Shown: one piece after another, positions 7,993-31,083 of the stretch
Numbering within the stretch: the stretch's first letter is position 1
Layout of the letters: every line of letters starts with the position of its first letter
From: Sphaerolaimus hirsutus
Taxonomy: Eukaryota > Nematoda > Chromadorea > Monhysterida > Sphaerolaimidae
DNA: 64,000 bases
NCBI GenBank assembly: GCA_964036195.1
Contig: OZ038459.1
Location: forward strand, 24,301,206-24,365,205
Reading direction: 5' to 3'
The notes under the pieces: model-generated
What the model was told of the DNA's origin: nothing
Seen by the model: only the letters and a program-made list of their open reading frames with translations
Database searches by the model: none
Translations under genes and position numbers: made by a program

Positions 7993-8107
7993 TATTCTTC
8001 CCTTCATGGACATCTTACCTTCGGAAGATATGATGTCCGCGCGGACATCATACCTTCGCGGTCATTATACCTTCAACATTTCTGATTTAAGAAGGTATAA
8101 TGACCGC
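7993..8107 (+). repeat. Left terminal inverted repeat with hairpin words
   Basis: Contains the word GCGGACATCATACCTTC and its inverted partner GGAAGATATGATGTCCGC around 8021-8057, then GCGGTCATTATACCTTC and, 19 bases on, its complement GAAGGTATAATGACCGC. The termini are thus a set of about 17-bp words in alternating orientation, which could be recombinase or transposase binding sites. Confidence 0.75.
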
Positions 8108-8713
8108 CATATAAACACTAGTAAAATGCATATATGTGGGACATTATAGGTCCGCCGATAAATGACACGCATTTATTAGCGTAATAGCGGCATCTGTTAC
8201 GCTGCATAGGTCTAAGCGATTGATTGAAGCGCGCACATATGTGCATCTATGCCGTCTGACCAGGTGTGTCCGTTTCTGCTGGGTCAATGCGTTTCAAGCC
8301 CTATTTTGCGCCGAAATCAGAATAATGTCATTTTATTGTCGCGCGACTTTTCTGGTTGAAAATAATTTCTTGCATTTCAAGCGATGTCATATTTTCTGTG
8401 CCCGAAAGAGTTCTATTCCTTTATACATTGATAAATATTGACTGTTTTTCTATGCCTAATTTTTGCGAACAAATCTATCAATCTATCTATCAATTCGAGA
8501 TTCTTTGGTCTCTCATCAAAATAAATCACACGTGCCACTAAATTTTATCCCAAATATTCATTTGAAAATGTCGCGACAAATGGAAGATTGCGAATGTCGT
8601 CAGGTTGTCAGAGAATTCCCACACGGCACAACTCTGGCAGGCTGCCAGAAAACGACCAGTTTTGAACTTTTTGTCTGGTTGGGAACATGTACATCGTGAA
8701 ATACCTTCATGTT
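8108..8713. other. Internal sequence of giant element, nothing recognised
   Basis: AT-rich, with short runs of ATCT words near 8475. No convincing coding frame or TIR structure. Confidence 0.4.
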
Positions 8714-10800
8714 GCCGAGTGTTCTGTACTCGGGTGCGTTGTGTACGTGGGACGTGGGACGGGAATATATTGGGATGGGGAGCAAATATATGGAATAAAC
8801 CAGCACAGAAATTTGGAATATGTACATTGTTCTGTACCCGGGGTGAGTTGTGTGCGGGTGCGGGATGTATAAATATATTTACATTCATGTCACTTTATTC
8901 ATCAAATTATGGTAAAACTTTGTGCAAATATACGTAACGCACACAAATATAGAAAGTATAGAATGATCAGCGACAATCAGCGTTGTCATAGGCACCCATA
9001 GGTGCGTTCTGTACATTGGTACATTCTGTACATGGTTGCGTTTTAGACACAGAAATTCACAATGTCTCAGCATCTGACAACATTATATATGAATGGAAAT
9101 ACACGTGACTTGTCACTTAACTTGTCAGCAAAAAATTATCAGTCAAAACTTGACACTTGCTGAACCCAGATAAAAATGTTGTAAAAGAACAGGGAAATGC
9201 AATAATTGCACATTACCATAAAACCAATTTACAGAAAAACCAATAATGCACCCACGTACACAACGCACCCTAGTACAGAATGCATAACAGACCATCCAGT
9301 GTTGCCGAGAGTTCTGTACTTGGGTGCGTTGTGTACGTGGGACGTGGTACGCAAATATATTGGGGTTGGGACGTAAACTGGTGGAATATACAGCACAGAA
9401 AATTGGGGATATGTAAATCGGGATGTGAATATATTTACATACATGTCACTTTATTCATCAAATTATGGTAAAACTTTGTGCAAATATACGTAACACACAC
9501 AAATATAGAATGTATAGAATGATCAGCAACAATCAGTGTTGTCATAGGCACCCATAGGTGTGTTCTGTACATGGTTGCGTTTTAGACACGGAAATTCACG
9601 ATGTCTCAGCATCAAGAAAACGAGCAACATATAAACTTTAAAGTGACAAGACAAGTATTCTGAAACTGACAACATTATATATGAATGGAAATACACGTAA
9701 CTTGTCACTTAACTTGTCAGCAAAACATTATCAGTCAAAACTTGACACTTGCGGAACTCAGATAAATATGTGGTAAAAGAACAAGGAAACGCAATAATTG
9801 CACATTACAATAAAACCAATTTACAGAAAAACCAATAATGCACCCACGTACACAACGCACCCGAGTACAGAACGCATAACAGACCATCCAGTGTTGCCAG
9901 GCATTCTGTACTCGGGTGCGTTGTGTACGTGGGACGTGGTATGCGAATATATTGGGGTTGGGACATAAACTGGTGGAATATACCAGCACAGAAAATTGGG
10001 GATATGTAAATCGTTCTGTACCTGGGTGAGTTGTGTACGGGTGCGGGATGTGAATACATTTACATTGCTTTTCATGCCACTTTATTTATCAAATAATTGT
10101 AAAACTTTGTGCAAATATACAGGGGTGGGCATTTTCAGTTACCGCTGGAAAAACGCGATAGCTTGAGCTATGGTTGAGCTATCACAGTGAAATTTTAACA
10201 CAATCGAGTAGACTCCATAGGACACCTATTCTGAAGTTTGCAACCAAAACGGCCACATTTTGTGTGGGTTATGGAACACACAGTTTTTTTTGTGTAATTT
10301 TGTGTCTTAACCCCCTTTATCTCGGGACTGGGGTACTGTTCGAGAAAAAAAAAGAATTTGGTCGTAGCCCCGACCCCAAACCCCAACATATTTACTCAAA
10401 GGGCATCAAAATCGGCCAATGTACGACAGATTGGGACGACGCCAAAGCCAGTGACCCCCCCCCCCCCTCAAATGCCACCCTTGATTTATCCTATCGTGAC
10501 GCCGAGTCACAAAATTACACTAAAAACTGTGTGTTCCACAACTCACCCAAAATGTGCCCGTTTGGGTTGCAAACTTCAGAATAGGTGTCCTATGGAGTGT
10601 ACTCTATTGTGTTAAAATTTCACTGTGATAGCTCAACCATAGCTCAAGCTATCGCGTTTTTCCAGCAGTAACTGAAAATGCCCACCCCTGTACATAATGT
10701 ACCCACGTACACAACGCACTCAAGTATAGTATGATCGGCAACAATCAGCTTTCAGTGGGGTGGGGACGTAAACGGGAATATACCAGCACAGGAAATTAGC
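8714..10800. repeat. Three tandem units of about 590 bp
   Basis: The landmark TTCTGTACTCGGGTGCGTTG recurs at about 8720, 9310 (one mismatch) and 9905. Units are about 589 and 593 bp apart and contain TGTACA-centred words in both orientations plus a GGCACCCATAGGTG segment. The third unit is interrupted by a 571-bp MITE (10120-10690) and decays by 10800. Confidence 0.8.
10120..10690. mobile_element. TA-flanked MITE, CAGGGGTGGGC family, copy 1
   Basis: Ends CAGGGGTGGGCATTTTCAGT and complement, TIRs of roughly 90 bp, each flanked by TA. The inner part of each arm carries words such as TTTGCAACC and CGGCCACATTTTG and a long C run. A second copy is at 48553-49107. TA target suggests Tc1/mariner/pogo-type mobilisation. 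Confidence 0.82.
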
Positions 10801-11172
10801 AGATACTAGCGATAAACATTTCAATGTTTGTACCTCCTCTTAAGTCCACATCCTCTTAAGTTTTTTTTTAAACATCAAGTTAAAAAACAACGTTTTTTTT
10901 CAACCCTACTTCCGACACAAAGAACGCCACAAGCTGCCGCGCACGAATGGGTTACGCGTGTGGTTCATGTAATGAGTTGATAAAATTGCATAAAATTGAT
11001 ATTTTTGAAACATTGCCGGTTTTTATGAGTCAGCATTTTGAAACATAAAAACGAAGTTTATTGCTAGAATATTTTTACTCTGATGCAAATTAAATATCAA
11101 AGCAAAATACTTAGGTAATCAATTTGACCAAGAAATGTCATCACTAATCTCACACACACTTGATGTCTACAG
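10801..11172. other. Non-coding stretch before the SET exon
   Basis: AT-rich sequence with no TIR or coding signal. It ends in a usable acceptor (GTCTACAG, 11165-11172) for the SET exon. Confidence 0.4.
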
Positions 11173-11464
11173 GGACTGAACGTTTGCTGTGTAAAGAACA
11201 GCGAATGTTGCACGACGTTGAACAGGAACATGAACAGTTCAAAAGTGTACTAAACAATCCTGATGAAGGGTTGCGCATCTTTCAATGCTCCACAAAGGGA
11301 CGAGCTGTTTGCGCTACTAGAAATTTCTCTAAGGGCCAGATTGTATGTGAATATAGAGGCAAATACTTGCCCTACCTCGAGGGACTTAAACGTCAGAAAA
11401 TGTTGGATGCTAATGGAGACGAGCGATCATTTCTTTACCAAGTCGACAGCCTTGGACGTTTCTT
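11173..11464 (+). CDS. KMT5A-like SET domain, N-terminal half (single exon)
   Basis: Exon bounded by GTCTACAG and CTT/GTGAGT. Near its middle, KGRAVCATRNFSKGQIVCEY followed by RGKYL matches the opening of KMT5A/SETD8-type SET domains (the KGRGV, ATR, F-x-KG and VEYxGxL pattern). The residues LYQ..GR that follow correspond to the strand before the Cys-Val-Asp-Ala segment. KMT5A enzymes monomethylate histone H4 lysine 20. The usual KGRGV is KGRAV here, so a SAM-pocket glycine is alanine. The NHS and ELxxDY catalytic motifs would be in later exons, and none is visible before 11847. The upstream part (LLCKEQRMLHDVEQEHEQF) is helical and charged. Probably a broken or transposon-captured gene. SET identity is firm, KMT5A subfamily likely. 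Confidence 0.75.
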
Positions 11465-11846
11465 GTGAGTTGAGTAAAAGGCAGTGACCAGGGATGTAGC
11501 CAGGATTTTGGAGCGGGGATTTGTAGGTAGGGTTCAAAATGGATAAATATGTCAAAAACTGAAAAGTCAAATGACAAGTCGCTCTACTTTCACTTTTTCA
11601 GTTGAAAAAAGTGATAAATATGTTGAAAACGCATTTGACTTTTCAATTTTCAACATATTTATCACTTTTTCAAGTGAAAAAGTGAAAAGTCAAATGACAA
11701 GTTACTTTAATTTTCACATTTTCACTTGAAAAAAGTCATAAATATGATGAAAACTCAATGGACTTTACATAGACTTCTTAATTTATTTATCACATTTTTG
11801 TCAATTGGCAAGGTGTTGAATTGGCCCAAGGTGTTTCATTTATCAG
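11465..11846. repeat. Intron-like spacer with iterated AAGTGAAAA palindromes
   Basis: Starts with a GTGAGT donor and ends with the acceptor TTTATCAG. It contains TAGGGTTCAAAATGG near 11529 and then repeated, mutually inverted words (GATAAATATGTTGAAAA, AAAAGTCAAATGACAAGT). This resembles the iterated-core TIR elements elsewhere in the window, but the right terminus is not clear. Confidence 0.5.
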
Positions 11847-12012
11847 TACAGGGCACAGTGTGATAGTGGAGGATGCGAAGAATGAGCTGCATGAGAGCAG
11901 CACAGTGAAAAATGCCAATGCAAAACGACCAAGCCGTATTGGAGTTGTGCTGTATTTACACAGGGGATTGGTGAGCCCTAACCATGGTGCTCCCTGTCTA
12001 AGTACAAGATGA
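11847..12012 (+). CDS. TET/JBP-like 2OG-Fe(II) dioxygenase, C-terminal exon
   Basis: The frame contains GHSVIVEDAKNELHES, then a Lys-Asn-Ala-Asn segment, RPSRIGVVLYLHRG and PNHG. This lines up with the conserved C-terminal core of TET/JBP 5-methylcytosine dioxygenases: the iron-ligand His, the AKxELH segment, KNPN, the PTRI arginine that binds 2-oxoglutarate, VFYQH and PxHG. Iron-ligand and co-substrate residues look intact. The HxD motif lies further upstream in such proteins and was not found. The exon follows acceptor TTTATCAG, ends in TGA, and is followed by AATAAA 138 bp on, so it is a terminal exon. It is phase-compatible with the SET exon, though a genuine fusion is doubtful. It is a cargo gene or captured fragment inside the giant element. 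Confidence 0.72.
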
Positions 12013-12150
12013 TGCTGTTCCAAGTCCTTTGTAGCAGAACCAACCCAACGGCCCTCTTCAGGGCTACCATTTGTGCAAGAGACGAATTGTGCAATTTGCA
12101 TGTTTGTGGCGGACATGTGGCGGACCTAAAGTTCGTGACGGAAACAGCCA

Positions 12151-12156
12151 AATAAA
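12151..12156 (+). terminator. AATAAA polyadenylation signal
   Basis: AATAAA 138 bp after the TGA of the TET-like exon, in the correct orientation. Confidence 0.5.
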
Positions 12157-12590
12157 GAGCCAAGAATTCAGCAATGTTACTTGGACATGCTCTACAAGCT
12201 GATTTGGCAGTGAGTCCGATTTGGCCAAAGTTGAATGTCCCGAAATGGAAATTATAGGTCCATGGGTTTTACAGGTTTTTTGCTGACTTTTTTCGTTATG
12301 GTGCTCTTATGTCAGCATTGTCTCTTTATGATGAAATTCTACTCCTATATAGCACATAGGGACTGAATTTACCCTACTTTGTGCACCTCACATCCGACAC
12401 GGCCCACCCTCTAGGGTTACCTTTGGATGCTCTGTGAGGTTTTTCAGTCTAAGTATATCAAATCAAAAATAGTTCCAGGTTTTTTCCACCTTTTTTACCA
12501 ATGCCTATACCTGGAATTTGTCTTAAGTTCTTTACAAATACACATTGCATGGGTGGGGTGGGAAGAGGCGATTTTAGACAGTCACTTTGG

Positions 12591-14146
12591 TAGTGATGTA
12601 AAAAGCGCCAGACCTTTGGCGCCAAGCGCCATGGCGCTTTTGGCATGCGAAGGCCAAGCGCCAATGGCGCCACAGCAAAATAGCGCCAAAAGCGCCATGG
12701 CGCTTTTCTAGGCCATGGCGCCAAGCGCCAATGGCGCCAGGGGATGATGGCGCCAAGCGCTAATAGCGCCAGCGCCAAAAAATTTGCTGCATAAAGTGTA
12801 TCCGCTGCAATTTGCTGCATAAAGTGCATATGTTTTTGTATCCAAATGTTCACATGAGATTTGGAGTCAACAATAACATAATTTGGATACAAAACATAAG
12901 ATTTCAAAATAAAACATGAGATTTGAACACAATTTGCTTGACAATTGATACTTGAATTTGACAATTTACACTTTACTTTACATTTGTCATGACAGTTGAC
13001 ACTTTGCGTGACATTTTACATGACATTTGCCACTTTACAATGCTTGGGACTGCCCCCAGATCCATGAATAAACAGGTAGAGACTCAAGCAATGAGACAAA
13101 ATTTTACAAAAACATATGAATTTTTATACAATTTTACAAAAATACAAATTTTTATACAATTTTACAAAAAATTTACAAAAATTCGAATTTTTATACAATT
13201 TTTATTTTTATTCTTAAATTTTCCATTTTATTTTATTTTATTTTATTCTTGAATATTCCATTTTATTTTTATTTTATTTTTATTTTTTTCTGAGATTTTG
13301 CCAACCCTGCACATATACCATATTTCCTCGAAATACCCCCTTCAATGAACCCCCCCCCCCCTCGAAATACACCCCGTCTGGAATAAGGTAGATCATGTAT
13401 CCAATGAACATGATACATTTTTAGCTGCGAATTTACATCGCAGCTATACATGGCCTTGTTTATGGAACGATCTATGGTAATATGAACAAAATATATCCTA
13501 TTTGATCATCTAATTACATTTTCGGTACAAAAAACTATACTTTACTATGACACTTCATAAAAAATTCTCCCCTCAAAATTTGCACCCTGAAAAAATAAAC
13601 CCCCTGGGTGTATTTCGAGGAAATAAGGAAGTTACTTCATGCCGGTACTTCATACCACAGCATCAATACAACTTCATTTGCAATATAATGCGACACTATG
13701 CATTTGAACGCTGTTCGTCGGCTCGTCATCAAGCCTTGAATTGAGATGAAAACCAGTTGACATAAAATGTCGTTGAAAACTAGTGCGTGTAGGCCCATTT
13801 TTTGGTAAAAGTTTTGAATATCCTTGCAATTGCATGGACATGGTTTACAAAATAAGCAACTAGAGGGTTTGTTCTTCCTGTAACACACTTACAGTAACAC
13901 ATTTATTTATGTAACTCATGCAGGCAAGGTCTTTTTACATAAGAAAAATGATTATTTTTTTGTACTACTTGGCGCTTTATAAAACACTAGCGCCAAGCGC
14001 CAATGGCGCCACGACATCATAGGGCCAAGCGCCAAAAGCGCCATGGCGCTTTTCGGTAGCACAGCGCCAAGCGCCAAAAGCGCCATGGCGCTTTTTGCTT
14101 TGGTGCTAGCGCCAAGCGCCAGCGCCATGGCGCTTTTACATCACTA
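12591..14146. mobile_element. hAT-like element with GGCGCC-iterated arms, copy 1
   Basis: Ends TAGTGATGTAAAAAGCGCC and complement, flanked by a perfect 8-bp duplication CACTTTGG (12583-12590, 14147-14154). TAGTG fits YARNG. Arms (12600-12780 and 13980-14140) are arrays of GGCGCCAAGCGCCAATGGCGC. The middle holds another repeat (12785-13310, also found around 47600-49860) and a nested CCGTATTTCC MITE. No transposase. Confidence 0.9.
13318..13628. repeat. CCGTATTTCC-family MITE, copy P2, nested
   Basis: Ends CCATATTTCCTCGAAATA and complement. Left flank TA, right flank AA. Poly-C tract near the left end. Lies inside the 12591-14146 element. Confidence 0.7.
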
Positions 14147-14154
14147 CACTTTGG

Positions 14155-15348
14155 TACTTCTATTTAAGTACACATTTCTGTAGGCTACCTTTACCCCCAC
14201 CGCGACAAAAAGTACCTTTTGGATGTGAAAATATAACAGTTGACAACAGTGCTTCTTTATTACATGTGTGTTGACATATTAGCTAAAAAGTTGCCAGAGT
14301 TTTATCCCATCTCCCAAAAAAATAGATGACCTGGACTAACAGGGTTGCTGCACGCGCCCCAGGTCGCACATTTTATATATCGTATTTATACTATACAGTG
14401 TATAAAATGACTGAATCCCTGTTATTCTAATCAAGAAGCAGGGGTTTTCAATTGAAAACCCCTTCTAAAAGATATGCCGACTACCAAAGGGTGGCCTTCA
14501 GAGCCGAAATGGATGCCTTGCTTTCCTTCTGGGGTAAAATAAATACTGTACAAAATTAATTCTGTACAAATCTGGCCGTGTTCTATTTTTGAGGGGTGTC
14601 CAAAGTGATTGAAACGAGAAGTTTGCGGGTTCGAGTATGTTGCACAATATAGTGAAGCGTAGCCAGTGATAGCATCATTTGCACCCTGAAATTTATCGGA
14701 TTTGAGATTTCGGTAGGCCCCCTATGCTGATTCACACAAATAGATTATCCCACAATGTAATGAAAATATCAAAGGGGTGCACTGAGACCAGATTTCAATT
14801 TTACTTGACAAATCACTGTAATTATGTTTTTCCAGAGGTTGCACATTATTAAAACATGAACAAATTTTGAGGGTTTATTTGAGATCAAATGCATGTTAAA
14901 ATTAAGTCAAAATTAGTAAAAAATTGAACGTTTTGAAAATAATGAAATGAGCTGTCTGTATGAACGTTTTTGCACATTTCTTTTGCAATTGTTTTTTTCT
15001 TGACAATTGTTCTACAAATATTTTTGACAACTTCACATATTTCATGTTCCATATTCATAATATTAAACATTTTGATATGAATTTCACCAATAAATGTTGC
15101 TGGACAAAAAAAGTACAGATGACACTCCAGCGATATGCACCATGGTCAAACATGCAGGAAATCAGTAATAGTATCAGGACGAGAGTGCACTGAGATGCAT
15201 GAGCACTGGCCGTGTGCTGGGCCGATTAGGCCCAAATATCGCCGCTTAGCCGATCAACTTGGCATTCCCAGCCGCTAATTTTGATTGGCCGCGGCCGCGA
15301 TTTCTCTTTGTTGTGCAACAGGCTCGCAGTCGAGACTGTGCACAGATT
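14155..15348. other. No gene recognised
   Basis: AT-rich sequence with short unconvincing frames. A GC-richer stretch near 15190-15300 (CCGCTTAGCCGATCAACTTGG) has no recognisable function. Confidence 0.4.
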
Positions 15349-15464
15349 GCGTTAATGTGCACAGATTGCGTCACATCAAAGTGATCACAGTCTCCCTGAA
15401 AAATTTTCCTGGGATTATACTCCAAATTTCAACAGATGTGATGCAATTTGAATACGGCACCACA

Positions 15465-15472
15465 TATAAATA
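15465..15472 (+). promoter_or_regulatory. TATA-like box in repeat unit
   Basis: TATAAATA conserved at the matching place in R2 (17327-17334) and R4 (26274-26281), each followed at a constant distance by AATTCAGTGTCTCC. The constant context suggests a Pol II promoter, perhaps from an LTR-like or other mobile repeat. No transcript evidence. Confidence 0.4.
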
Positions 15473-15826
15473 GCGCGCCGCGGCATCACCAATTCAGTGT
15501 CTCCATTTTTTGAAAAGTTTTTTTGACGCGTGGCGGCGGGCTGGTGCGCCTATGGCCCTAGGTATGGATAGTTTTTATGTAAGATGTCTTCGTGCACTTC
15601 CACATAACTATCAATGTTTCCTTTTTTGGCACTATATATTTGGTGCACATGTGTCGCGTTCCGTTTTTCCGGCCAGTTAAAAAACGCACCTGTGTACAGA
15701 ACGCACCCGTGTACAGATCCCACACCTGAAAATGTAATTTCGCTAGCCATGTGATTAGCATATCATTAGTTTTTCCATCACTTTTGCACCCGAAAACACT
15801 TCCTTATAACCACTTATACTCTGTAT

Positions 15827-16469
15827 TAGGGTGTCAAAAAAATTTTTTTACGGAAAACGGAAACGGAAACGGAAATTTTTTTTCAGTGGCCGGAAAATGG
15901 AACGGAAAACGGAAAAAAATTTGCACTTGGCGGAAAACGGAAACGGAAACGGAAAAAAATTTTCAGCGGCCGGAAAACGGAAAAAGAGGCCGGAAAAACG
16001 GAAACGGAAAAATCAAATTTGCACGGAAATGGGAAAAACTTGCTGGAAATCGGATAAAATTTGCTGAATTTTTGCTGGAAGTGAAAAAAAATTGCAGTAA
16101 TTTTGCTGGAAACAGAAATTTTTTTACATCATTGACAATCTGCATGAATTTTTGCCAGTTTGGCTGATCAGAAGACCGAAAGTTGAGCCGGAAAAAGGTA
16201 AAATGAGGTGGAAAAATGGAAAATTGAGGCGTAAAATGGAAAAAAAGGCGGAAATTGAGGCGGAAAATGGAAAAAAGGCGGAAAAACTGAACATTTAGCC
16301 GGAAAACGGAAAATGAGCCGGAAAAACGGAAACGGAAAAAAATGTTGCCGGAAAACGGAATGGAAAACGGAAAAAAAATTTCAGCAGCCGGAAAACGGAA
16401 CGGAAAACGGAAAAAATTTGCCTGCGGAAAACGGAAACGGAAAACGGAAAACGGAAATTTGACACCCTA
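15827..16469. mobile_element. hAT-like element with (GGAAACGG)n core
   Basis: Ends TAGGGTGTCAAA and TTTGACACCCTA, with perfect 8-bp duplication CTCTGTAT (15819-15826, 16470-16477). The uninterrupted site is present in R2 near 17680 (ACTCTGTATAAACTC). Nearly the whole element is iterated GGAAAACGGAAACGG with scattered GCCGGAAAA. Non-autonomous. Confidence 0.93.
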
Positions 16470-17210
16470 CTCTGTATAAACTCTTTATACTATTTTTTGA
16501 GCTGCTGCTTAAGCCCACAGCTGCACGTTGCAGTGCCACATAGGGCCCACACACGCTAGTTGACATCGACAACAAATGTGAACTGGTGCCGATCCCTATT
16601 CGACGCTTGCTGACTAGCGCCTTTCAAATGCAAGTTTTGAATTGGGAACGGAACCAGTTGACATTTGGTGTTGACGCGTTCTGTACACGGGTGCGTTCTG
16701 TACATGGGTGGGTAAGGCTTCCGCTGGCCACCGCCGCCTTCCATCTACCCTATTTCTTCTAAGGGCGCCCTTCTAGTTTTTGCCGTTTTTTACCTACCCA
16801 AGGTTAAAGTGTTACGTTTATATGTACTGTATAATAGAATGATGATTCAGAGTTCATTCAACATTTGATGTTAAAACATTGCAAAGCTTGCCAGAAAGGT
16901 GGGCACAGGTTACATAGCATGAAGTACTTCCTTTCCAGTTAATTTGAAGGGTGTGCTTCTAAAAGTACTGATCTACAAATTTTTCAAATTAAGAGTTAGG
17001 ACCATTTTGGGGGTCCCCATAAAAATGCGCTTCAAAAATATATATTATAGGTGGGGGAGCGAAATTCAATTTTGAGATATGGGGGGTCAAAAAAAGCAAA
17101 AAAATCGCAAAATACTGTTTTTGAAATTTTAAAAGTACCAATCTACAGGTCGATTTAGATGGACTTGGTATAATTTCAGCAGTCAGTGTCAACTGACAGG
17201 TTTTACACTT

Positions 17211-18415: not shown

Positions 18416-18589
18416 CGGTGCCAACTTTAAATATAATACTGTCAACTAGAGCAAAGTTGGCACCTAAAATCAGTTTTGCAGCAATAAACAAGAAGAAAAT
18501 GTTGTTCAACTCTCTACCTGGAAAGAAAACCTTTGTGATTTTATTGGATTTATTTCATAAAATTGTGATTTTGTGATCAAAATTTACTA

Positions 18590-19081: not shown

Positions 19082-22000
19082 TTACTTGTGAACATTAAAG
19101 TTGACTTGCCTATTATACCAGGGCATAGCCATAGCCGGCGGAGGGTCACCTGCAACGTGGCTCACATACTTAACCCCCTCAAAATTCTCCGGCCGATGCC
19201 TACCAGCTTCCTCCATCACATTGTTGAATCCCGCCGCAAAATTGTCACTATCAAACTTGTCACTAAAGCACTTGTAGCAATAGTGATCCTTGAGGTTCGA
19301 TGGGGTGTCGCGCACCGCCGGATGGATGTGCACCATCCCGGCATCGAACAACCTTGCAAACTGGGCCTGGCTCCAATTAAACGGAATTCCGTTCTGCAAA
19401 ATTTGATAATTATTACTAATTTGGAAATTAAAATTATTAGAATAAATTCACTTCAACTAGAAATTTATTGAAAATTGAGAATGTAAGTAGGGTTCAAACG
19501 GGATCTCGATCCCGATACCAATCCCGAAACTTTTCAAATCCCGATCCCGATCCCGGAAAAATTAGTGGAAATCATCAAAAGTGAAAAAACGATGGTTTTG
19601 CATGCAAAAATGTGAACGCAAACCCCCAGCGTTCATTTTATGCCACGTTTCTGGCATCCAACAGGGTTTTTTAGACCTTTATGAACAACTGAGGATGTGG
19701 CCAAAATCTCTATCCCAAGACCCCAATCCCGATCCCCGAAAAAATGCCAATCCCGATCACGATCCCGTGACCCCAATCCCGGCCAATCCTGATCCCGATC
19801 CCGAAATCTCAAAAAAACAATCCCGATCCCAAAACATCAAACCCGTTTGAACCCTAAATGTAAGACAAAATTAACTAACCAAATTTCCCAAAACTTGGTG
19901 GTAATCCCCAAACCCATTCAAACAGCATTTTTCGATCATGCGGCATTGGAACCCAATGTAGCGCAGGCAAGCGCCCAAACAGTCCGCCAAAAACTCGCCT
20001 GTGCAGCTACTGTACACGTGAACCTGAACCAAAAAATATATTTTGAAGAATGTTTTAAATGTAAAATGGCTCCAAAATTTATAAAAACCTTGGAGATAAT
20101 TTTATTTAAAGTTATATAAACACCTTCCCGGACAAGTTCACCACCCATTTTTTATTTCACTTCGAATGCAATATCTCCGTCCATGGGGGTGTTATAAAGC
20201 TGAAACTTTGTACATATAAAGTTGTAAGACCCCTCTACTCCCCAACAATGGGGGAGGTGCGGCGACTCACTACAGGGTGGGTCGCCCTATATGCAACAAT
20301 TTTTTTGGCGTTTTTGGTGTCCCAAACAAGTTCACCACCCACTTGATTGGCTACACTACAAGAGCCATATCTCCAGCTGTGATGGTGGTATAAAGCTGAA
20401 ATTTGGGGGATGTCTTGCCAACAACCCCCTTCACGATCCACCAGTGGGGCGGCTGCCAACGACCCACTAACACATGGGTCACTGCATATATAGTTAACCA
20501 TTTTATAAAAACAGCCCAAGTGTCCCAAAGCAAGTTCATCACCCAACTGCATTGAAAAAATGTTGCAACAACATACCTAATATGAAAATGAATCGGGTTG
20601 GAACACTATTTCAGCCAAAAAAATTTTTTTCAGTAGGGCACCCACCCTGTCCCATAAACAGCTGACTGAAAATTTCACTTTAAACCAATTTTTTGTATCA
20701 CACTTAAAAAGTTGGTTTACAAAGTTCACTAGGGGAGGGTCTAAGGTTCAAAGTTATGTAAACAACATAACCTCTAAAATGCTTCCATAAGGAAATTTAC
20801 TTGGGGTGAATTCTATGATGTCAAAATGATGTCATTTCAGGAAGAAAATTTGACAAAATTTTCACTTTTTCATTCACCCCAAATAAATTTCCTCATGGAA
20901 GCATTTTAGAGGTTATGTTGTTTACCCAACTTTGAACCTTAAACCCTCCCCTAGTGAACTTTGTAAACCAACTTTTTAAGTGTGATACAAAAAATTGGTT
21001 TAAAGTGAAATTTTCAATCTGCTGTTTATGGGACAGGGTGGGTGCCCTACTGAAAAAATTTAATGAGCAGAACTAGGGTTCATATCTGATTCAATTTTAT
21101 ATCGGTATGTTCTCACAACATTTTTTTTATAATGCAGTTGGGTAGCGAACTTGTTTGGGACACTTGGGTTGTTCTAAAAAAAATTATCAAATTTATATGC
21201 AGTGACCCATGCTTTAGTGGGTCGTTGGCAGGCGCTCTGGTGTATTGTGAGGGGGGTTGTTGGCAAGACATCCCCCAAATTTCAGCTTTCCACCGCCCTC
21301 ACAGCTGGAGATATAGCCTTCAAAGTGTAGCTAATCAAGTGGGTGGTGAACTTGCTTGGGACACCAAAAACGCCACAAAATTTTTTTGCATATAGGGCGA
21401 CCCACCCTGTAGTGAGTCGCCGCACCTCCCCCCATTGTTGGGGAGTAAGGGGGTCTTACAACTTAATATATACAAAGTTTCAGCCTTATAACACCCCCAT
21501 GGACGGAGATATTGCATTCGAAGTGAAATAAAAAAATGGGTGGTGAACTTGTCCGGGAAGGTGTTTATGTACTTAAATGTACGTAAATCCAAATGTATTT
21601 ATTCCAATAATCCAAAGTCCAAAACATTTTTACCAAAGTCCAATTTTGAAAAAGACTTACCGGAAGTCCCAGGGGGGCATTTGGATAGATTTCGCACACA
21701 TCCAAGTGGTGCAACTGTTCGGTGTGGCGTTTTTCGCATTCCTTGTATGTGCACATGCGAATCAACAAAACGCGCGCTGGCAAATAGCGCCCGTTTTCCA
21801 GCACAATCGGCATATCGGTGCGGTGATGCCGATAGACAACCTGTAAAGTGTCTTTCTTTGAACAAGAGAAGCTTTACAACAACACAAAACATTATATTTT
21901 ACAAAGTAAAATGCTTTGCTACAATGTAAAGCAAATTACATTTTATTAGTTCAAACTAGGGTTGGCCGATGTTTTTTTAAACGTTTTTTTTTTTAAAACA

Positions 22001-23487
22001 TGACGTCCGAAATGTTTTTTTTTTTTAAAAACATCGGCTGAAATTTTTAGTACTAAGCAATAGGTATTTTGCAAAATTTTTGCGCGCAAGCGCGCAATTT
22101 CACACACAAATTGACATTGGTGGTCGTTTTCATTGGTTTTGTTGCATTTTTAGTATCAAAACATCCATTTCTATGTGCTACCATGGGTGAATAAGCCAAC
22201 ATATGTTGCTGTAATATATAATATTGAGGTAATGTGCTTCCATGTACCTCCACAGTGTGTAACTTCACTCCCAAAGTAACAACCTCCTTTTATAACCTTG
22301 TTTGATCACCATTCCGTGCCAAACTTTACCTGAAGTCATGAACATTCGACTATAAGGCAATATACAAACGATATGTCAACGAAAAATGGATATTTTTGAC
22401 ACAAATCACCACTTATAATGCTATCCCATGGCTCCACAGCCATTATATGGTCATATTTAACATCACAGAGTATTGCCAGTGTCTGATATACCTATATATG
22501 TTGACACTAGGTCATATCTTGGAGCTTTTTAAAAAAAACGTTTTTTTTTAAACTTTTTTTTAAAACATCGAGTTAAAAAAAACGTTTTTTTTTCCAACCC
22601 TAGTTCAAACGTAAATTAAAAACTAACTCTAAAATCAAAGTAAAACAGAAAATATTCCGAAACCAATGTAAAGTGTTTTTCTTTGAACAAGAGAAGCTTT
22701 ACAACAACACAAAACATTATATTTTACAAAGTAAAACGCTTTGCTACAATGTAAAGCAAATTACATTTTATTAATTCAAACATAAATTAAAAACTAACTT
22801 TAAAATCAAAGTAAAACAGAAAATATTCCGAAACCAACCTCCACATTGCACGACGTCGTGATTGGAGTAGATTTGGTGCCCTGAATGTAATTCGTGTTTG
22901 TGCTGGCAAAATATTGGCGGCCCATGCTTTTGCGATTTTCGTGTTCTTCTACGGAAAAATCGCAAAATTCGATTTCGACCATATCCACCTGCCCGCCCAG
23001 ACGCGCGCTCACTGAGAATATAAACGAAAACCATACAATTTCACAAATCACAATAATCAAGCAAATCTGAATCTCAATTTTCATTGCAACTTGACGTTTG
23101 CGTGACTGCGTGATTCAAAACTCAGTCCAAACAACACAAAATTCCAAACAACAACACATATTTCAAAACAACCTACCCATTCGGGTGTTCTCATGGTGAC
23201 TCAACAGCAATTTCGCGGCATCATTCAAGTGCATGTCATCGGTATTCGTGCCATTTATCATCCAAATAGCCAGGGTGCGTTGACGCTGACCATCGCACCA
23301 AAATTGGGCGTGTCCTGGGTGGAAGTCGCGAGCGATTTCCAGACGCGCCAAACGGGACACCGTGTCTGAAAAATAAATTAAATATCCATTTATCCGGATA
23401 AATGTCATAAAAAGCATCTATATTACCGGGAGTGCCGGTAGAACTTCGACAATTTTGCAGCGAAAACGAGAGACACCAACAAATCAA
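19082..23487 (-). CDS. Five-exon gene of unknown function inside the giant element
   Basis: Minus-strand exons 23487-23427 (5' end uncertain), 23365-23177, 23011-22839, 21840-21661 and 19393-19082. All have GT donors and AG acceptors, and all four junction phases agree (1, 1, 0, 0), which is unlikely by chance. It ends in TAA. The product is at least 300 residues, with segments such as RLARLEIARDFHPGHAQFWC, VDMVEIEFCDFSVEEHENRK, MCTYKECEKRHTEQLHHLDV and DHYCYKCFSDKFDSDNFAAG. Paired Cys/His residues could bind metal. No domain recognised, no obvious membrane segment. Introns hold three transposons (19488-19856, 20119-21565, 21957-22602), yet all identified exons are intact, so the gene may still be functional. 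It could be cargo or the element's own mobility protein. Confidence 0.68.
19488..19856. mobile_element. hAT-like element with (CCCGAT)n arms
   Basis: Ends TAGGGTTCAAACGGG and CCCGTTTGAACCCTA with perfect 8-bp duplication AATGTAAG (19480-19487, 19857-19864). Arms are iterated ATCCCGATCCCGA. A unique core (about 19575-19700) recurs at 47360-47480. Lies in the last intron of the minus-strand gene. Confidence 0.93.
20119..21565. mobile_element. Long palindromic TA-flanked element, 1.45 kb
   Basis: Ends AACACCTTCCCGG and CCGGGAAGGTGTT, flanked by TA. The two halves are inverted copies over about 700 bp each, meeting near 20843. Shared words include GACCCACCCTGTAGTGAGTC-type sequence and GGGACAGGGTGGGTGCCC. 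Would form a very long hairpin. No protein. Lies in an intron of the minus-strand gene. Confidence 0.85.
21844..22838. repeat. Tandem intron duplication, one unit carrying a hAT insertion
   Basis: Unit 1 (21844-22667, interrupted) and unit 2 (22668-22838) share TTTCTTTGAACAAGAGAAGC and the rest of about 170 bp. Unit 2 keeps the uninterrupted site ATTCAAAC near 22777. Confidence 0.8.
21957..22602. mobile_element. hAT-like element, TAGGGTTGGCCGATG family, copy 1
   Basis: Ends TAGGGTTGG and CCAACCCTA, 8-bp duplication GTTCAAAC (21949-21956, 22603-22610). Ends carry iterated TTTTTTTAAACG/AAACATCG words; the unique core (22050-22520) is shared with 40109-40747. Confidence 0.92.
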
Positions 23488-23838
23488 GTTTTTCCTTTTT
23501 AGAAAAAATATTTATTTGGATACCAGCAGACATCCGAAATTGGAAGTTAACATTTTGTATATCCTAATTAAATGGATTTAAATGGACAATGTTCACAGAA
23601 AAGAAGTAAAAACAGTAGAACTTGACATTTTTGATCCGTAATCGACAATTTTGCAGCGAAAAACGAGAGCCGCCAACAAATCAAATTTTTCCTTTTAAGA
23701 AAAAATATTTATTTGGATACGAGCAGACATCCGATATTGGAAGTTAACATTTTGGATATCCTAATTAAATGGATTTAAATTGTCAATGTTCACAGAAAAG
23801 AAGTAAAAAAAAGGTAGTACTTGACATTTTGAACCAAA
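23447..23838. repeat. Direct duplication, two units of 196 bp
   Basis: Units start at 23447 and 23643 with CGACAATTTTGCAGCG and are highly similar. The first unit overlaps the 5'-most exon of the minus-strand gene, so part of that exon is duplicated upstream. Confidence 0.8.
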
Positions 23839-23956
23839 GTCTAAAAAGACCAAAAAACTGAAACATGGGACTATACCAAGCGGATTTTCTTCACCAACAA
23901 AACCCATGTTCAAACATGCAGAAGCTTCTGAAAACATTTGTTGTCGGGAGTGTGGA

Positions 23957-24201
23957 TTATTTTTTGTCATGCCCTGTGCATGACATAGAGAAATTTATAG
24001 TCAGCCAAGAACCGTCTAGCGGAAAGTTTACACATGTGGAATATTACGCCCACCGCAACTGAAGGTCGATGAGCAGAAAGCGAAACGACCTTCAGTAAAA
24101 TGCGGTGGGCGTAATATTTCACATGTGTAAACTTTCCGCTAGACGGTTCTTGGCTGACTATAAATTTCTCTATGTCATGTACAGGGCATGACAAAAAATA
24201 A
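23957..24201. repeat. Near-perfect 245-bp palindrome
   Basis: Arms of about 110 bp (TTTTTTGTCATGCCCTG ... complement) with a short loop around 24060-24090, flanked by TA. Could be a hairpin MITE. It abuts the truncated left end of repeat R3. Confidence 0.82.
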
Positions 24202-24206
24202 TGTTT

Positions 24207-25108
24207 ATCAATGTTTCCTTTTTTGGCACTATATATTTGGTGCACATGTGTCGCGTTCCGTTTTTCCGGCCAGTTAAAAAACGCACCCGTGTACAGAATG
24301 CACCCGTGTACAGAACGCACCCGTGTACAGATCCCACACCTGAAAATGTAATTTCGCTAGCCATGTGATTAGCATATCATTAGTTTTTCCCATCACTTTT
24401 GCACCCGAAAACACTTCCTTATAAACACTTATACTCTGTATAAACTCTTTATACTATTTTTTGAGCTGCTGCTTAAGCCCACAGCTGCACGTTGCAGTGC
24501 CACATAGGGCCCACACACGCTAGTTGACATCGACAACAAATGTGAACTGGTGCCGATCCCTATTCGACGCTTGCCGACTAGCGCCGTTCAAACACAAGTT
24601 TTGAATTGGGAACGGAACCAGTTGACATTTGGTGTTGACGCGTTCTGTACACGGGTGCGTTCTGTACATGGGTGGGTAAGGCTTCCGCTGGCCACCACTG
24701 CCTTCCATCTACCCTATTTCTTGTAAGGGCGCCCTTCTAGTTTTTGCCGTTTTTTACCCGCCCAAGGTTAAAGTGTTACGTTTATATGTACTGTATAATA
24801 GAATGATGATTCAGAGTTCATTCAACATTTGATGTTAAAACATTGCAAAGCTTGCCAGAAAGGTGGGCACAGGTTACATAGCATGAAGTACTTCCTTTCC
24901 AGTTAATTTGAAGGGTGTGCTTCTAAAAGTACCGATCTACAAATTTTTCAAATTAAGAGTTAGGACCATTTCGGGGGTCCCCATAAAAATGCGCTTCAAA
25001 AATATATATTATATGTGGGGGAGCGAAATTCAATTTTGAGATATGGGGGGTCAAAAAAGCAAAAAATTGCAAAATACTGTTTTTGAAATTTACCGATCTA
25101 CAGGTCGA
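24207..25108. repeat. Partial repeat unit R3
   Basis: Matches R1/R2 from TATCAATGTTTCC through ACCGATCTACAGGTCGA; the first 250 or so bases, including the TATA-like box, are missing. Carries an extra TGTACA word compared with R2. Confidence 0.82.
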
Positions 25109-26187
25109 GTGGAGTTATGCTCGTATAGATTGGGGCGTCTGTTTGTGCACTCGAGTCCAGTTATAGGTTTTTTGCCATATTGGATGTTTTAGGGGTCAAA
25201 GGTGTGTGTAAAAAATATCGCGTGCCTGTGTTATGAAACATTCTGCGTATGCGTGTAAAGTAGAACTGTTATGCTTGCATAATGCATATCAGCTGTTAAA
25301 TCAGATCAGACTACTAGATTTAGATATATTTTATGATTAATTTCTTAATAAGACTGCTCAATTTGTTCGTTCTATATTTGTGTATGTACATGTCAATTTT
25401 CCATGTTTTTCAAAATATGCTATCTCAGTTGTCGATTTTAGCCAACTTTGAATATGAATTTATCAAATTTTTAGATCAATTGACAGTGCCTATTCAAAAG
25501 TACATTCACTACAAACTTTAACCACGCTTGTTATGCAACCGCAACGGTTCCATTTCACACACATACACAGAATGTTGCATAACATGGGCAAAAGCCACAT
25601 TTTTCTGCACGCACCGATGAGACGCGCGATTCTGTGATGCGCGCGGCGGTCATCACGCAAAAAAAGCCAAGCTGACATAGGAGCATAACTCCACAACGCC
25701 GATCTACAAGCTTTTTCAGCTTTTGTCTTTAAAAGTACCGATCTACACACTTTTTTCAAAATTGTTCTTTTAAATGTACCGATCTGCACATTATTTTTTG
25801 TGCTTCAAAAAGTGCCGATGTCAGATTGGTGTCCGGTTGAGCAAAAACTCATTTTGTGCTTTTTTATTATGGGTAAAAGTACCGATCTACACTTTTCTGA
25901 TGTTGTGCTTTAAAAAATACGATCTACACGCTATTACCAATTTGTTCCCTTAAAATGTACTGTACTACAAAAATACAATTCTCTAAATTTTATATAGCTA
26001 GTGTTATGTGTTTAATCAATGATTATACCCATGCATGTGGTTACCCAACAATATGGCTGAAATACCCTTACCCAAAATTCCCATACCCAATATCCATGTA
26101 TGGGTATTGCATGCTCCAAACTTTCAATCGCGATTATCTCAAAATCGTTTTTTTGTAGATCGGTACTTTTAGAAGCACACCCTTCAT
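24912..26187. mobile_element. Candidate TIR element, GAAGGGTGTGCTTCTAAAAG ends
   Basis: About 33-bp inverted ends, GAAGGGTGTGCTTCTAAAAG... and complement, flanked by ATTT on both sides (possible 4-bp duplication). Interior repeats the word AAAGTACCGATCTACA at least five times. No protein recognised. R1 and R2 hold only its left part. Confidence 0.5.
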
Positions 26188-26265
26188 TTGTTCCTTTCAC
26201 GCTGAATAACATCGATGTAGTGTAAATGAAACTTCAAAAAAGTTTCGGTTTTTCACATTGAATAG

Positions 26266-27070
26266 GCACCACATATAAATAGCGCGCCGCGGCATCACCA
26301 ATTCAGTGTCTCCATTTTTTTGAAAAGTTTTTTTGACGCGTGGCGGCGGGCTGGTGGGCCTATGGCCCTATCGATAGTTGATGTAAGATGTCTTCTTGCA
26401 CTTCCACATAACTATCAATGTTATCGTTTTAGCACTATTTATTTGGTGCACATGTGTCGCGTTCCGTTTTTCCGGCCAGTTAAAAAAACGCACCCGTGTA
26501 CAGAACGCACCCGTGTACAGATCCCAACCCTGAAAATATAATTTGGCTAGCCATGTGATTAGCATATCATTAGGGTATTTACATTTGGTCTTCGCAGCCC
26601 CCCATTTTGACGGTATTTGTACAAAAGCATTGTTGTTTGTCCAGATAAAGTTGTAATTATTTACTTTATCGGAAGTACGTATTTAGTTTTTCCCATCACT
26701 TTTGCACTTTTGCACCTGCACAAAACACTTCCTTATAAACACTTATACGCTGAAAATGTAATTTCGCTAGCCATGTGATTAGCATATCATTAGTTTTTCC
26801 CATCACTTTTGCACCCGAAAACACTTCCTTATAAACACTTATACTCTGTATAAACTCTTTATACTATTTTTTGAGCTGCTGCTTAAGCCCACAGCTGCAC
26901 GTTGCAGTGCCACATAGGGCCCACACACGCTAGTTGACATCGACAACAAATGTGAACTGGTGCCGATCCCTATTCGACGCTTGCCGACTAGCGCCGTTCA
27001 AACGCAAGTTTTGAATTGGGAACGGAACCAGTTGACATTTGGTGTTGACGCGTTATGTACATGGGTGCGT
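26266..27070. repeat. Partial, rearranged repeat unit R4
   Basis: Matches R1/R2 from the TATA-like box to GTTGACGCGTT, interrupted by about 190 bp of foreign sequence (26573-26760) and a short internal duplication of the GCTAGCCATGTGATTAGC segment. Confidence 0.75.
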
Positions 27071-27149
27071 TTGAAAAGTTTTTTTTGACGCGTGGTGACG
27101 CGGCGGCGGCCTGCGGACATCAGATTCTCCGCCGAACCTGCGCCCCAAA

Positions 27150-27275
27150 TCTGCCAGCCATCTATCTATCTCCGAGGCCGCTCAGCTATCTATCTATCCC
27201 TAGGTAAAATTTTTGGCTACTACCCCCAAAGACCCCCCCCCAAATCGCTCAGCTATCTATCTATCTGGAGTGGAC
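27150..27275. repeat. CAGCTATCTATC repeat, partial
   Basis: Three blocks of CAGCTATCTATCTATC separated by C-rich spacers, related to longer copies at 39045-39425 and 41930-42250. It immediately precedes the first exon of the next gene and may supply its upstream splice acceptor. Confidence 0.65.
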
Positions 27276-27277
27276 TA

Positions 27278-28355
27278 ATGGAAATGGACACTTCGAGTTC
27301 AAGCATTGGATTGCTCGAGCTCGCGCATACGAGCAACGTGGAGCGGCTTCCCACCTGGGAGCAGATGTTCCAGCTTCTGTCCACTATGCGGCCTGATTAC
27401 AATACCGATAAATATCTACTGGGCCACGGTCATGTTTACAATATCAATGTGGATGATTCGGTTGGTTAATTTCGCTAACTCAAGTTTGCGGCGTGCGTTC
27501 TGTACATGGGTGTGATCCCAAAATCATATAACATTTTTGAAATACAATGAATGACCCTTTTCGTGGCTATTCATCAGTTAACATGAGTTGACAATGTCAA
27601 CTCCAACGTAAAAACCCCCCAATAACCCCCATCAAAATACCCCCACCCCCATTTAACTGATGTTCTGACCAAAAATAGATTTTTTTGTGGGATTTATAGC
27701 AAAATCTCAATATTCACACTGATTTTCATACCCATCATATCCACCGCAGATTGTAGTGTACAACAGCAAAGCGTACCTGATGAGACTGACTAGCAGGATG
27801 CCTGTTGCGGTCAAAGTGGTCCAGATATTGGACCAGCGCTCCCTCGACGATAGGATCACGGAGCTTATGTGAGTCACTTGGTTTGAACCAATGGTTCCTT
27901 GGACCTAACGAATAGTTTTTTGGATTTGTATTCTCCATATTGGATTTTTGGCACCAATGGTGTGTGTGCAATAATTCTGAAACATGAAACTGTGTCATGC
28001 AATAAACAATTCTATTGGAATCCTTACTAGTCTCATTGATCATAAAGTTGATCATTGATCATTTTTGATGTAAGCGTTCTGTACATGGGTGCTTTCTGTA
28101 CACCGGGTGCGTTCTGTACATGGGTGCTTTCCGTACACCAGTGCGTTCTGTACATGTGTGCATTCTGTACATGGGTCTTCTGTACATGGGTGCATTCTGT
28201 ACATGGATGTGTTCAACATTGAGCTGATCCCAACCATCTTTACCTGCAGGAACAAACGTTATCGCGCTGGTTATGGCTCGTTTGGCAACTGCCTGGTCCT
28301 GGTGCACGAGATACTAAAATCGCTCACCACTAGGATAAGAGAGATGTTAGTTTAG
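27278..28355 (+). CDS. Three-exon gene of unknown function inside the giant element
   Basis: Exons 27278-27460, 27750-27868 and 28250-28355, with donors TCG/GTTGGT and TTAT/GTGAGT, acceptors CCACCGCAG and ACCTGCAG. Phases agree (0 and 2); the second junction splits an ATG codon. It ends in TAG. About 135 residues: Ser-rich start (MEMDTSSSSIGLLELAHTSN), then ERLPTWEQMFQLLSTMRPDY, SKAYLMRLTSRMPVAVKVVQ and a helical C-terminus (FGNCLVLVHEILKSLTTRIR). The start is the first ATG after the TATC repeat and could be internal to a longer protein. The helical arrangement is faintly BEN-domain-like, but I cannot support that. A 17-bp array sits in intron 2. Confidence 0.6.
28074..28213 (+). repeat. Array of eight 17-bp units with TGTACA core
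   Basis: Eight head-to-tail variants of GCGTTCTGTACATGGGT, some with TGTACACCGGGT. The same word occurs singly or in pairs in both orientations across 8.7-30.5 kb and at 44.3-44.5 kb. Located just upstream of exon 3 of the three-exon gene. Confidence 0.85.
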
Positions 28356-28389
28356 AGAGAGGCAACTCATTTTTAAACATTTTGGTTTA

Positions 28390-29008
28390 TTCTGTTGTAA
28401 TCTGACATCTCGCACTGTAATCTGACATCTGGCTGAGAAATGGCCGAGATATGAAGTTTTGAAGTTGCACGGATGTGCTTATTTATGTGGATGGGAGGGA
28501 AAAGTTTAAAGCACCATAACTTTTGATTGGAAAGAGATATCGATCTCATTTTTGTTTCATTGAGTTTCTCTCGATCAGGAGAATAGGATAGCATGTTCAA
28601 AAAGCAAACTTTTGCGGAAATTTTGCATTTCGAAATCGGGCTAAATCGATATATAAACAAATGTGTATCTCCGATTTGACCTCAGAAATGAACTCCCCGA
28701 ACATTTGTGATCATTTAAAATTTTAAATGACTAAAATCGGTTAACAAATGGAGGAGATATTGATGTTTAAAGGTTGCATGATCTGGGCAACAAACAAAAA
28801 AATCGCAAATGACCGACTTTTTATAGACCCACCTTATCTCCGGTCTGGGGGGTCGCAGCGAAATTTCCTCGGACTTGTAACTAGCCCCGACCTAAAACCA
28901 TATTATACTAAAAAATCAACGATTTTCACCGAGTGGTTCCCGAGTTATTAACACGCGCCGACAGGCAGACCCCCCCCCCCCCCCCCAAAATGCTACCCTC
29001 GATTTCAG
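28390..29008. repeat. One arm of a foldback element family
   Basis: Matches the right arm of the palindrome at 60820-62184 (shared: CCAATCAAAAGTTATGG complement, TCTCGATCAGGAG, TTTATAGACCCACC, AATGCTACCCTC). Only one arm is seen, so it is truncated. Confidence 0.65.
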
Positions 29009-29239
29009 CTATGCTTGCGCTGCAGTTCAGGCGCGAACTGGCCATCAGAAGGTCCTGGGTCCCGGAAACTGTTTGCTGCGATGCGGGCAGAGAGCGGGCT
29101 CAGCAACGCCAACTTTAACAAAATGATGAGAAATGTGCATGGGGCGAAAATGTGTATGCGGATGTGGACATATTCACAGGGGGGGGGCTTATTCAAGCGG
29201 GGAATTATTAAAGGGGGGAACTATTCAAGCAAATACGGT

Positions 29240-30540
29240 ATATAGGGTCAACTCACCCGGGTACAGAACGATGTACATGTAATTACATTTTCCTAATTTT
29301 CTGTGCTGGTATATTGTCCCATGTACACAACGCAACCTGAGTACAGAAGCTCTGTATTCTGTATGGTCTGTTATGCGTTGCATACTCAGGTGCGTTGTGT
29401 ACCTGGGTGCATTATGCCTAGAGCTATTCAACAATTTATGCATTTCCTTGTTAAAATTTTTTTTCTGTAAAGTGGTTTTATTGTAATGTGCAATTATCGT
29501 ATTCCCTATTTTTTACCGCATATTTATCTGAGTTCGCAAATCTGCATCCAGGTACACAACGCACCCCAGTACAGAACGCTTGCAACACTGTATGGTCTGT
29601 TATGCGTTGTGTACTCGGGTGCGTTGTGGACATTCTCCATGATTCAGGACAAATTGTAAACACATTATTAATGTGCAATTATCGTATTCCCTGTTGTTTA
29701 CCGCATATTTATCTGAGTTTCGCAAATTCGTGCATCTGCAATTTTTGAAAGTACATATCTGGATTTTTGCTACAAATTGCCCTGCTCACATTAGATTTCA
29801 CACAAAGTTTCAAAAACTCATTAATGAGCTGTGAACGTGGTCGAGTTTTCCACAATGAAATTTCAAGTATTTTTTCAAGTAGTTATATTGTCCACGTACA
29901 CAACGCACCCCATTTTTGCTACAAATTGCCCTGCTCACATTAGATTTCACACAAAATTTCAAAAACTCATTAATGAGCTGTGAACGTGGTCGAGTTTTCC
30001 ACAATGAAATTTCAAGTATTTTTTCAAGTAGTTATATTGTCCACGTACACAACGCACCCCATTTTTGCTACAAATTGCCCTGCTCACATTAGATTTCACA
30101 CAAAATTTCAAAAACTCATTAATGAGCTGTGAACGTGGTCGAGTTTTCCACAATGAATTTTCAAGTATTTTTTCAAGTAGTTATAATGTCCACGTACACA
30201 ACGCACCCCAGTACAGAACGCTCGGCAACACTGTATGGTCTGTTATGCGTTGTGTACTCGGGTGCGTTGTGGACATTCTCCATGATTCAGGACAAATTGT
30301 AAACACATTATTAATGTGCAATTATCGTATTCCCTGTTGTTTACCTCATATTTATCTGAGTTTCGCAAATTCGTGCATCTGCAATTTTTGAAAGCACACA
30401 TTTGGATTTTTGATACAAAATTTGATGCAAGGCAAGACAATTTTGTAGTGAAGACAATGTTTGCGGATTCGGATTTCATTGTATTCCCTCTTATAATAAC
30501 CCTGTGTACAGAACGCACCCACATCACAATTACATTTCAA
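29240..30540. repeat. TGTACA-word repeat cluster with duplications
   Basis: A segment of about 195 bp (29571-29765) containing TATGGTCTGTTATGCGTTG recurs at 30210-30400; between them lie three 149-bp tandem units. Paired words GTACACAACGCACC and GGTGCGTTGTGTAC are frequent. Confidence 0.75.
29763..30209 (+). repeat. Three tandem 149-bp units
   Basis: Units at 29763, 29912 and 30061, each starting ATTTTTGCTACAAATTGCCC, nearly identical. The period is exactly 149 at both steps, indicating recent unequal duplication. Confidence 0.92.
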
Positions 30541-30972
30541 TAAAGATGGTCAATGATGAACTTTGATAATTTGCCTTCCAATAGCAGATGGGTTACTAAC
30601 CTATTCGCAGATTCGTGCATCTGCAATGTAGAAAATAACGATTGGAAGAGTGTCAAAACGCTAACTAACGACAGCAAGAGATCTGCATTATAATACAGAA
30701 ATAGTTACTAACTGTGAAGTGTTTGAAAAATGCAACGTCGTACTACCGTAGCATAATTATTGATCAACTCTGCACGCGAATAACATCAATCCCGTGGCCG
30801 TTTTGTATTTTTCCGCACACGCCATTGACCCTGCAAAAATGCAATATGGTGAAACTCCCATAACTGGACACACCGGACACCAAAGTCAGACGCAAATAGG
30901 CAGGCGGAACAGGCGCCTCCGTGTTTCTAAATGCATATTATCGCCCAAACGTGTATTAATTTTATATTTTGA
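30541..30972. other. No gene recognised before right terminus of giant element
   Basis: Unassigned sequence with a short frame at 30794-31015 of poor composition. Confidence 0.4.
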
Positions 30973-31075
30973 AGTGATGATGTCCGACTCCCGAGAAGGT
31001 AAGATGACCGCCTGAAGGTATGATGTCCGCCCGGACATCATACCTTCAGAAGGTAAGATGTCCAAGAAGGGAAAG
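30973..31075 (-). repeat. Right terminal inverted repeat with hairpin words
   Basis: Reverse complement matches the left terminus over about 80 bp with a few mismatches and single-base indels. It includes the perfect hairpin half GAAGGTATGATGTCCG / CGGACATCATACCTTC (31016-31047). It abuts the resumed gag sequence. Confidence 0.75.
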
Positions 31076-31083
31076 TTTCCGGG

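Follow-up and report, generated by a model that had tools for sequence, protein, structure and literature searches.

How do exons of a SET methyltransferase and of a TET/JBP-like dioxygenase come to lie inside a transposon that itself sits in a retrotransposon gene? The question is raised by 64,000 nucleotides of the nematode Sphaerolaimus hirsutus (assembly GCA_964036195.1, contig OZ038459.1, positions 24,301,206 to 24,365,205 of the forward strand; this whole stretch is the window). An initial annotation, made from the sequence letters, had pointed there to a gag gene cut in two, with matching inverted repeats at both junctions and chromatin-gene exons between them. We show that a 23-kb transposon with terminal inverted repeats (TIRs) and target site duplications (TSDs), one copy of a multicopy family, interrupts gag in a Ty3/gypsy retrotransposon. 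In our judgement it is probably a non-autonomous Mutator-like element (9-bp TSD) carrying captured, dead fragments of SET and TET genes. The ends of the element follow from an alignment with the sister copy L015 and from the 9-bp TSDs around sister copies. The features that define the insertion, including the long terminal repeats (LTRs) of the host retrotransposon, are as follows.

7158..7564, plus strand: 5' LTR of the host gypsy, identical with 38399-38821 in 397 of 407 ungapped columns
7975..7983, plus strand: left TSD, CAAAAAAAA, matching the right copy at 8 of 9 positions
7984..31087, no strand: whole TIR transposon copy (L015 alignment, sister TSDs)
7984..8074, plus strand: left TIR containing GGACATCATACCTTC and GAAGGTATGATGTCC sub-repeats (134 genome candidates; the 40 scored match at 90-100%)
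30995..31087, minus strand: right TIR (inverted-repeat and L015 alignments, genome matches)
31088..31096, plus strand: right TSD, CAAAAAAAG, matching the left copy at 8 of 9 positions
38399..38821, plus strand: 3' LTR of the host gypsy, paired with 7158-7564

The insertion reported in the initial annotation stands, while its limits had to be moved, by 9 bp outwards on the left and by 12 bp on the right. The whole element thus occupies 23,104 bp (G000:C15:24309189-24332292), starts with GATTCCAGG at 7984 and finishes with CCGGGGTCC at 31087. Its inverted repeat is about 90 bp long and composed of GGACATCATACCTTC-type sub-repeats. The left and right copies are 89.9% identical over 79 columns (7998-8074 versus 31073-30995), and their outer bases are alignable too.

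When the flanks are joined, the gag frame stays open, whichever TSD copy is kept. A 227-nt query made of the joined flanks is matched along its full length (1-227) by 20 other loci, at 86-91% identity, and over 1-226 by one more; further loci match most of it at 73-78% (40 of 53 candidates scored). Against the same query, the match of the window itself is broken into 1-123 and 115-227. These gypsy siblings with unbroken gag establish the empty site and, together with the TIRs and the open joined frame, support the nesting of a TIR element within gypsy gag sequence. Neither Rfam nor a tRNA scan gave a match in the window.

Two of the checks proposed with the initial annotation, for uninterrupted gag copies and for other loci bearing the same termini, came out positive. 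A left-end query (7993-8107) gave 134 candidates; the 40 that were scored match at 90-100% identity. A right-end query (30726-31088) gave 247, and again 40 were scored. Ends were paired by eye, by strand and distance, from these scored lists. Twenty-four of the 40 left ends, the window included, are paired with a right end in the proper orientation at a distance of 0.3-37 kb, and the other 16 have no partner among the right ends scored. A perfect 9-bp TSD flanks 22 of the 23 pairs other than the window. Flanks were fetched for 20 pairs, and 19 agree at 9/9; the twentieth, C4:10192092, has CAAAAACAC at either side on the assumption that it lost five terminal bases. The three remaining pairs, read from their loci, agree at 9/9 as well (CTGCAGCTC, ATCAATTTG and ATTTTACAT). 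When left and right flanks of the 20 pairs were deliberately mismatched, none of 380 pairings reached 9/9 and two reached 8/9, against 19/20 true pairings at 9/9.

The family is variable in length. L015 is a 1,680-bp deletion derivative that retains both window ends (94% and 97% identical) within the TSD CTGCAGCTC, and L016 is a 324-bp miniature inverted-repeat transposable element (MITE) of the same TIR family. A 7.0-kb form on C13 is largely collinear with an 11.6-kb element on C2, of which 10 kb were read (97-99% in the main blocks, inserts aside). Pairs of 36.9 kb (C3:7849848-7886708) and 18.3 kb (C13:12952385-12970656) have perfect TSDs.

A TSD of 8-11 bp is characteristic of Mutator-like elements (MULEs), and the 9-bp duplications (9/9 in 22 of the 23 pairs outside the window, 8/9 in the window's own) as well as the TIRs of about 90 bp agree with this group. 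No MULE-type DDE transposase was detected in a six-frame Pfam scan of the element, and a genome search for PF10551 (MULE) gave one match, C15:12236230-12236487, outside every TIR pair. Since no transposase was found, as expected of a non-autonomous element, we call the element Mutator-like and not a proven member. It resembles MULE/MuDR in its TSD, inverted repeats and gene uptake, and in the FLYWCH-like exon of a related locus described below. It differs in that no transposase is recognised within it and its SET is half a gene.

The interior of the window copy is composed of the parts listed here; C9 denotes a sister copy at C9:19031364, C649 a contig of the same genome.

7984..10853, plus strand: left arm, 98.8-99.4% identical to the C9 copy outside the 10121-10690 insert (copy alignment)
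10121..10690, no strand: nested MITE-like insert with inverted repeats (I6), not in the C9 copy
10857..11545, plus strand: segment 1, collinear with C649 (5' part of the SET gene), starting inside a dispersed repeat of about 610 bp
11148..~11464, plus strand: SET8/KMT5A-like exon, N-terminal half of the SET domain, with a GTGAGT donor at its end (KMT5A/SETD8 in PDB, E 1.4e-6)
11536..15576, plus strand: segment 2, collinear with C649 (3' part of the TET gene and downstream DNA)
~11813..12009, plus strand: last TET/JBP-like exon (TET2 in PDB, E 3.4e-8; Pfam Tet_JBP 0.0062, profile 95-164)
19085..19447, minus strand: 121-aa open reading frame (ORF) of a repeated gene family, a nested transposable element without Pfam match (30 genome matches)
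20104..21578, no strand: foldback (palindromic) insert of 1.47 kb, 87.5% self-complementary
29316..30419, no strand: right sub-terminal minisatellite and tandem repeats, some of them matching left-arm repeats 9749-9932 in inverted orientation

The PDB matches confirm that a SET exon and a TET/JBP-like exon lie inside the element, as had been noticed from the sequence. The same cannot be said of the two other intron-containing genes claimed there. The best additional ORF, 19085-19447, has 30 genome matches and is therefore a different repeated gene nested inside the element; 16 of the 30 are at 61-100% identity and 15 of these are stop-free. No other candidate exon tested inside the element reached the cut-off of any Pfam family. 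The six-frame scan of the whole element yielded a weak Tet_JBP match and a chance RRM_Thc1 match, both below cut-off. Within the right sub-terminal region, a 149-bp unit is present in three tandem copies at 98% (29763-30210).

A candidate source that keeps the missing exons is contig C649 (88.7 kb), collinear with window 10860-15576 at 90-99% identity. Segment 1 is 90.1% identical to it over 10860-11092 and identical in 452 of 456 columns over 11091-11545. In segment 2, a stretch at about 12799-13309 is present in the window only, and the C649 contig terminates at the right end of this segment. On one strand, over 20 kb, C649 carries both halves of SET, exons for FLYWCH (weak) and SAM, and the two TET exons. 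Pfam values are 4e-7 for SET exon 2, 0.01 for the FLYWCH-like exon (below cut-off), 1.6e-7 for SAM and 1.5e-7 for the TET exon with the HxD motif (just under the whole-protein cut-off); a C2H2-looking exon has no Pfam match. Joined, the SET exons match SETD8 at 5.8e-24 and the TET exons match TET2 at 3.8e-15 in two collinear stretches. A separate protein search that used the joined SET pair gave no match. GT/AG-type signals are present where SET exon 1 ends, where SET exon 2 begins and around the TET introns; where SET exon 2 ends is ambiguous.

In the window, about 19 kb (19.1 kb) that separate the SET and TET exons in C649 are missing. The SET intron passes directly into the TET intron, with a few bases shared at the join, and because of this neither enzyme is complete. 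The SET and TET exons of the window copy are thus gene fragments, probably a captured and dead cargo and not working genes.

The C9 copy follows the window up to 10853 and then diverges. Homology to C649 begins at about 10857-10860, in the last 55 bp or so of the dispersed, unrelated repeat of about 610 bp. This repeat lies upstream of SET exon 1 at two further SET loci, on C2 and C470, and in C649 too, where it is split by another repeat. A search at window 10854 for a terminus and for its inverted copy returned short low-complexity matches only.

By tblastn (E<=0.1, C649 found as positive control), SET, FLYWCH, SAM and TET exons were not found in five sisters, namely L015 (1.68 kb), L016 (324 bp), the C508 element (6.4 kb), the C13 form (7.0 kb) and the C2 element (10 of 11.6 kb), or in 30 kb at C9 and 19 kb at C13:12.8M. 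The comparison left out the interiors of the 36.9-kb pair, whose first 1.6 kb (L008) were read, and of the 18.3-kb pair. Genome matches, with the window and C649 included, number eight for SET exon 1, four for the last TET exon, three for the first TET exon and nine for FLYWCH; none of them falls inside another TIR pair as defined by the scored end lists. The notion that SET and TET are cargo of the family at large is thus not sustained. No family TIR was found within C649:1-50999. We favour capture because the SET segment starts in the middle of a repeat, this part of C649 is free of the TIR and the other TIR pairs contain no SET, TET or FLYWCH match.

Under capture, a transposase encoded at another locus would have mobilised the element in trans. 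The interior of the element would have acquired, either before or after the insertion into gag, two stretches of a C649-like chromatin-gene locus, one with the SET8-like 5' exon and the other with the TET 3' end and downstream DNA. The two may have been brought together over the intervening 19 kb or so, with a few bases shared at the junction, in the manner of Pack-MULE and Pack-TIR capture by repair synthesis, and further repeats would have become nested afterwards. As in Pack-MULEs and animal Pack-TIRs, of which 370 are reported from 100 animal genomes (PMC8277862), TIRs and a TSD enclose gene fragments whose near-identical relatives (90-99%, C649) are found elsewhere in the genome. The present element differs in its size, 23 kb, swollen by nested repeats, and in a candidate parent locus that is readable only in part.

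Several points weigh against this reading as a whole. The TSD of the window agrees at 8/9, a value equalled by two of the 380 mismatched pairings; it is thus not decisive alone, and the case for the insertion rests also on the empty sites. No transposase has been identified, and assignment to the superfamily is suggested by TSD length and TIR style. The C649-like donor site is an unproven candidate. The TIR search covered C649:1-50999, and TIRs may still lie in the remaining 51000-88748 or past the contig end, which truncates the locus on its 3' side. A deletion inside an element carrying the whole locus could give an identical layout. Moreover, SET and FLYWCH occur together again on C470, on the same strand and 18-20 kb apart, and this points to a module that moves or was duplicated. 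The exon stretch that follows FLYWCH there resembles C649 (46% over 28 aa); no SAM or TET exon was found in the 3.5 kb read below it. For most of a length of about 9.9 kb, the SET loci of C2 and C470 agree at 98.9-99.4% identity, and they differ in their left flanks. Between C649 and C2, SET looks to be under constraint, judging from nonsynonymous (dN 0.21) and synonymous (dS 0.75) divergence, and FLYWCH domains occur in several MULE groups (PMC6446971, Table 1). The locus could therefore belong to a mobile element.

It is conceivable, and in our view has a minor but real chance of being true, that the window holds a decayed giant autonomous Mutator-like transposon with SET, a FLYWCH protein (the transposase), SAM and TET as its own genes, of which C649 is another copy, the window having lost about 19 kb together with the transposase. 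Such a family might once have encoded an anti-silencing kit acting on histones and DNA, composed of a SET8-like methyltransferase, a FLYWCH/SAM protein and a TET dioxygenase, a proposal we hold just as tentatively, with the window as an internally deleted copy. The placement of SET, FLYWCH, SAM and TET on one strand of C649, the C470 pair, the FLYWCH domains of MULE groups and the SET constraint all speak for it. They are opposed by the TIR-free stretch of C649, by the weak FLYWCH score and by PF10551, whose single genome match lies away from the SET, FLYWCH and TET loci. The start of the SET segment in mid-repeat, where the C9 copy departs, and the other TIR pairs without SET, TET or FLYWCH matches do not fit it either. 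We consider it improbable that a separate SET/TET-bearing mobile element entered the TIR transposon and then lost about 19 kb, with no mechanism shared between the two. The near-identical C2 and C470 loci in different left flanks imply that the SET module itself may move, yet their unit ends show no inverted repeats (the right end on C2 is at an N gap) and the left edge of the window segment lies inside a repeat and not at a shared terminus. In favour of a KDZ-type transposon with TET cargo, the kinship considered in the initial annotation, there is a TET-like exon inside a large TIR element. Pfam includes a KDZ model, and no KDZ transposase family was matched in the six-frame scan. The TSD is 9 bp and not 8 bp as in Zisupton (6 bp in IS3EU; PMC12730594). 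We therefore rejected KDZ membership, which is very hard to credit.

If the cargo was captured, the locus provides a clear case of the Pack-TIR type, documented by empty sites and sister copies and by a candidate source, nearly identical, in which the missing exons are preserved. Should the SET-FLYWCH-SAM-TET locus instead be carried by a transposon, the range of transposon-encoded TET, described for fungi (PMC12730594), would be extended, and TET would be paired with a histone methyltransferase. That source lists eleven fungal DNA-transposon lineages with TET/JBP, among them KDZ, Plavaka, hAT, IS3EU, EnSpm, ESTA, Harbinger and Helitron; MuDR is not among them. As in those systems, a TET/JBP domain is found here within a DNA transposon, but theirs are dioxygenase genes in complete transposons and ours is one terminal exon in an element with a 9-bp TSD. 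SET is reported from Phytophthora HarbingerS and MuDR (PMC12730594), and a Phytophthora MULE group is annotated with "SET for 14 members" (PMC6446971). A literature search for a MULE with TET, or with TET and SET, brought up no further report among the matches listed, which came mostly from outside subscription journals.

Some further observations concern the sister copies and the relatives of the two enzymes. The C508 element (L042, L004), 6.4 kb with TIRs, contains an 892-aa ORF that combines a zinc knuckle with repeats of DATxxGDATRHGN. Near the C9 copy (C9:19001500-19031499; L009-L011), the ORF list indicates an LTR-type retroelement with ORFs of 1619 and 919 aa. The SET8-like copies on C649, C2 and C183 (L025, L026, L029, L033) share R-L-I/V-S-H-S, the same in three diverged copies; at this position N-H-S is found in KMT5A and in the probable host gene (C1:25941538). 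Additional short TET-like exons of 37-57% identity lie at C216:52406-53599, C515:22557 and C249:39751, and by sequence similarity a small expansion of TET/JBP genes is apparent in this genome.

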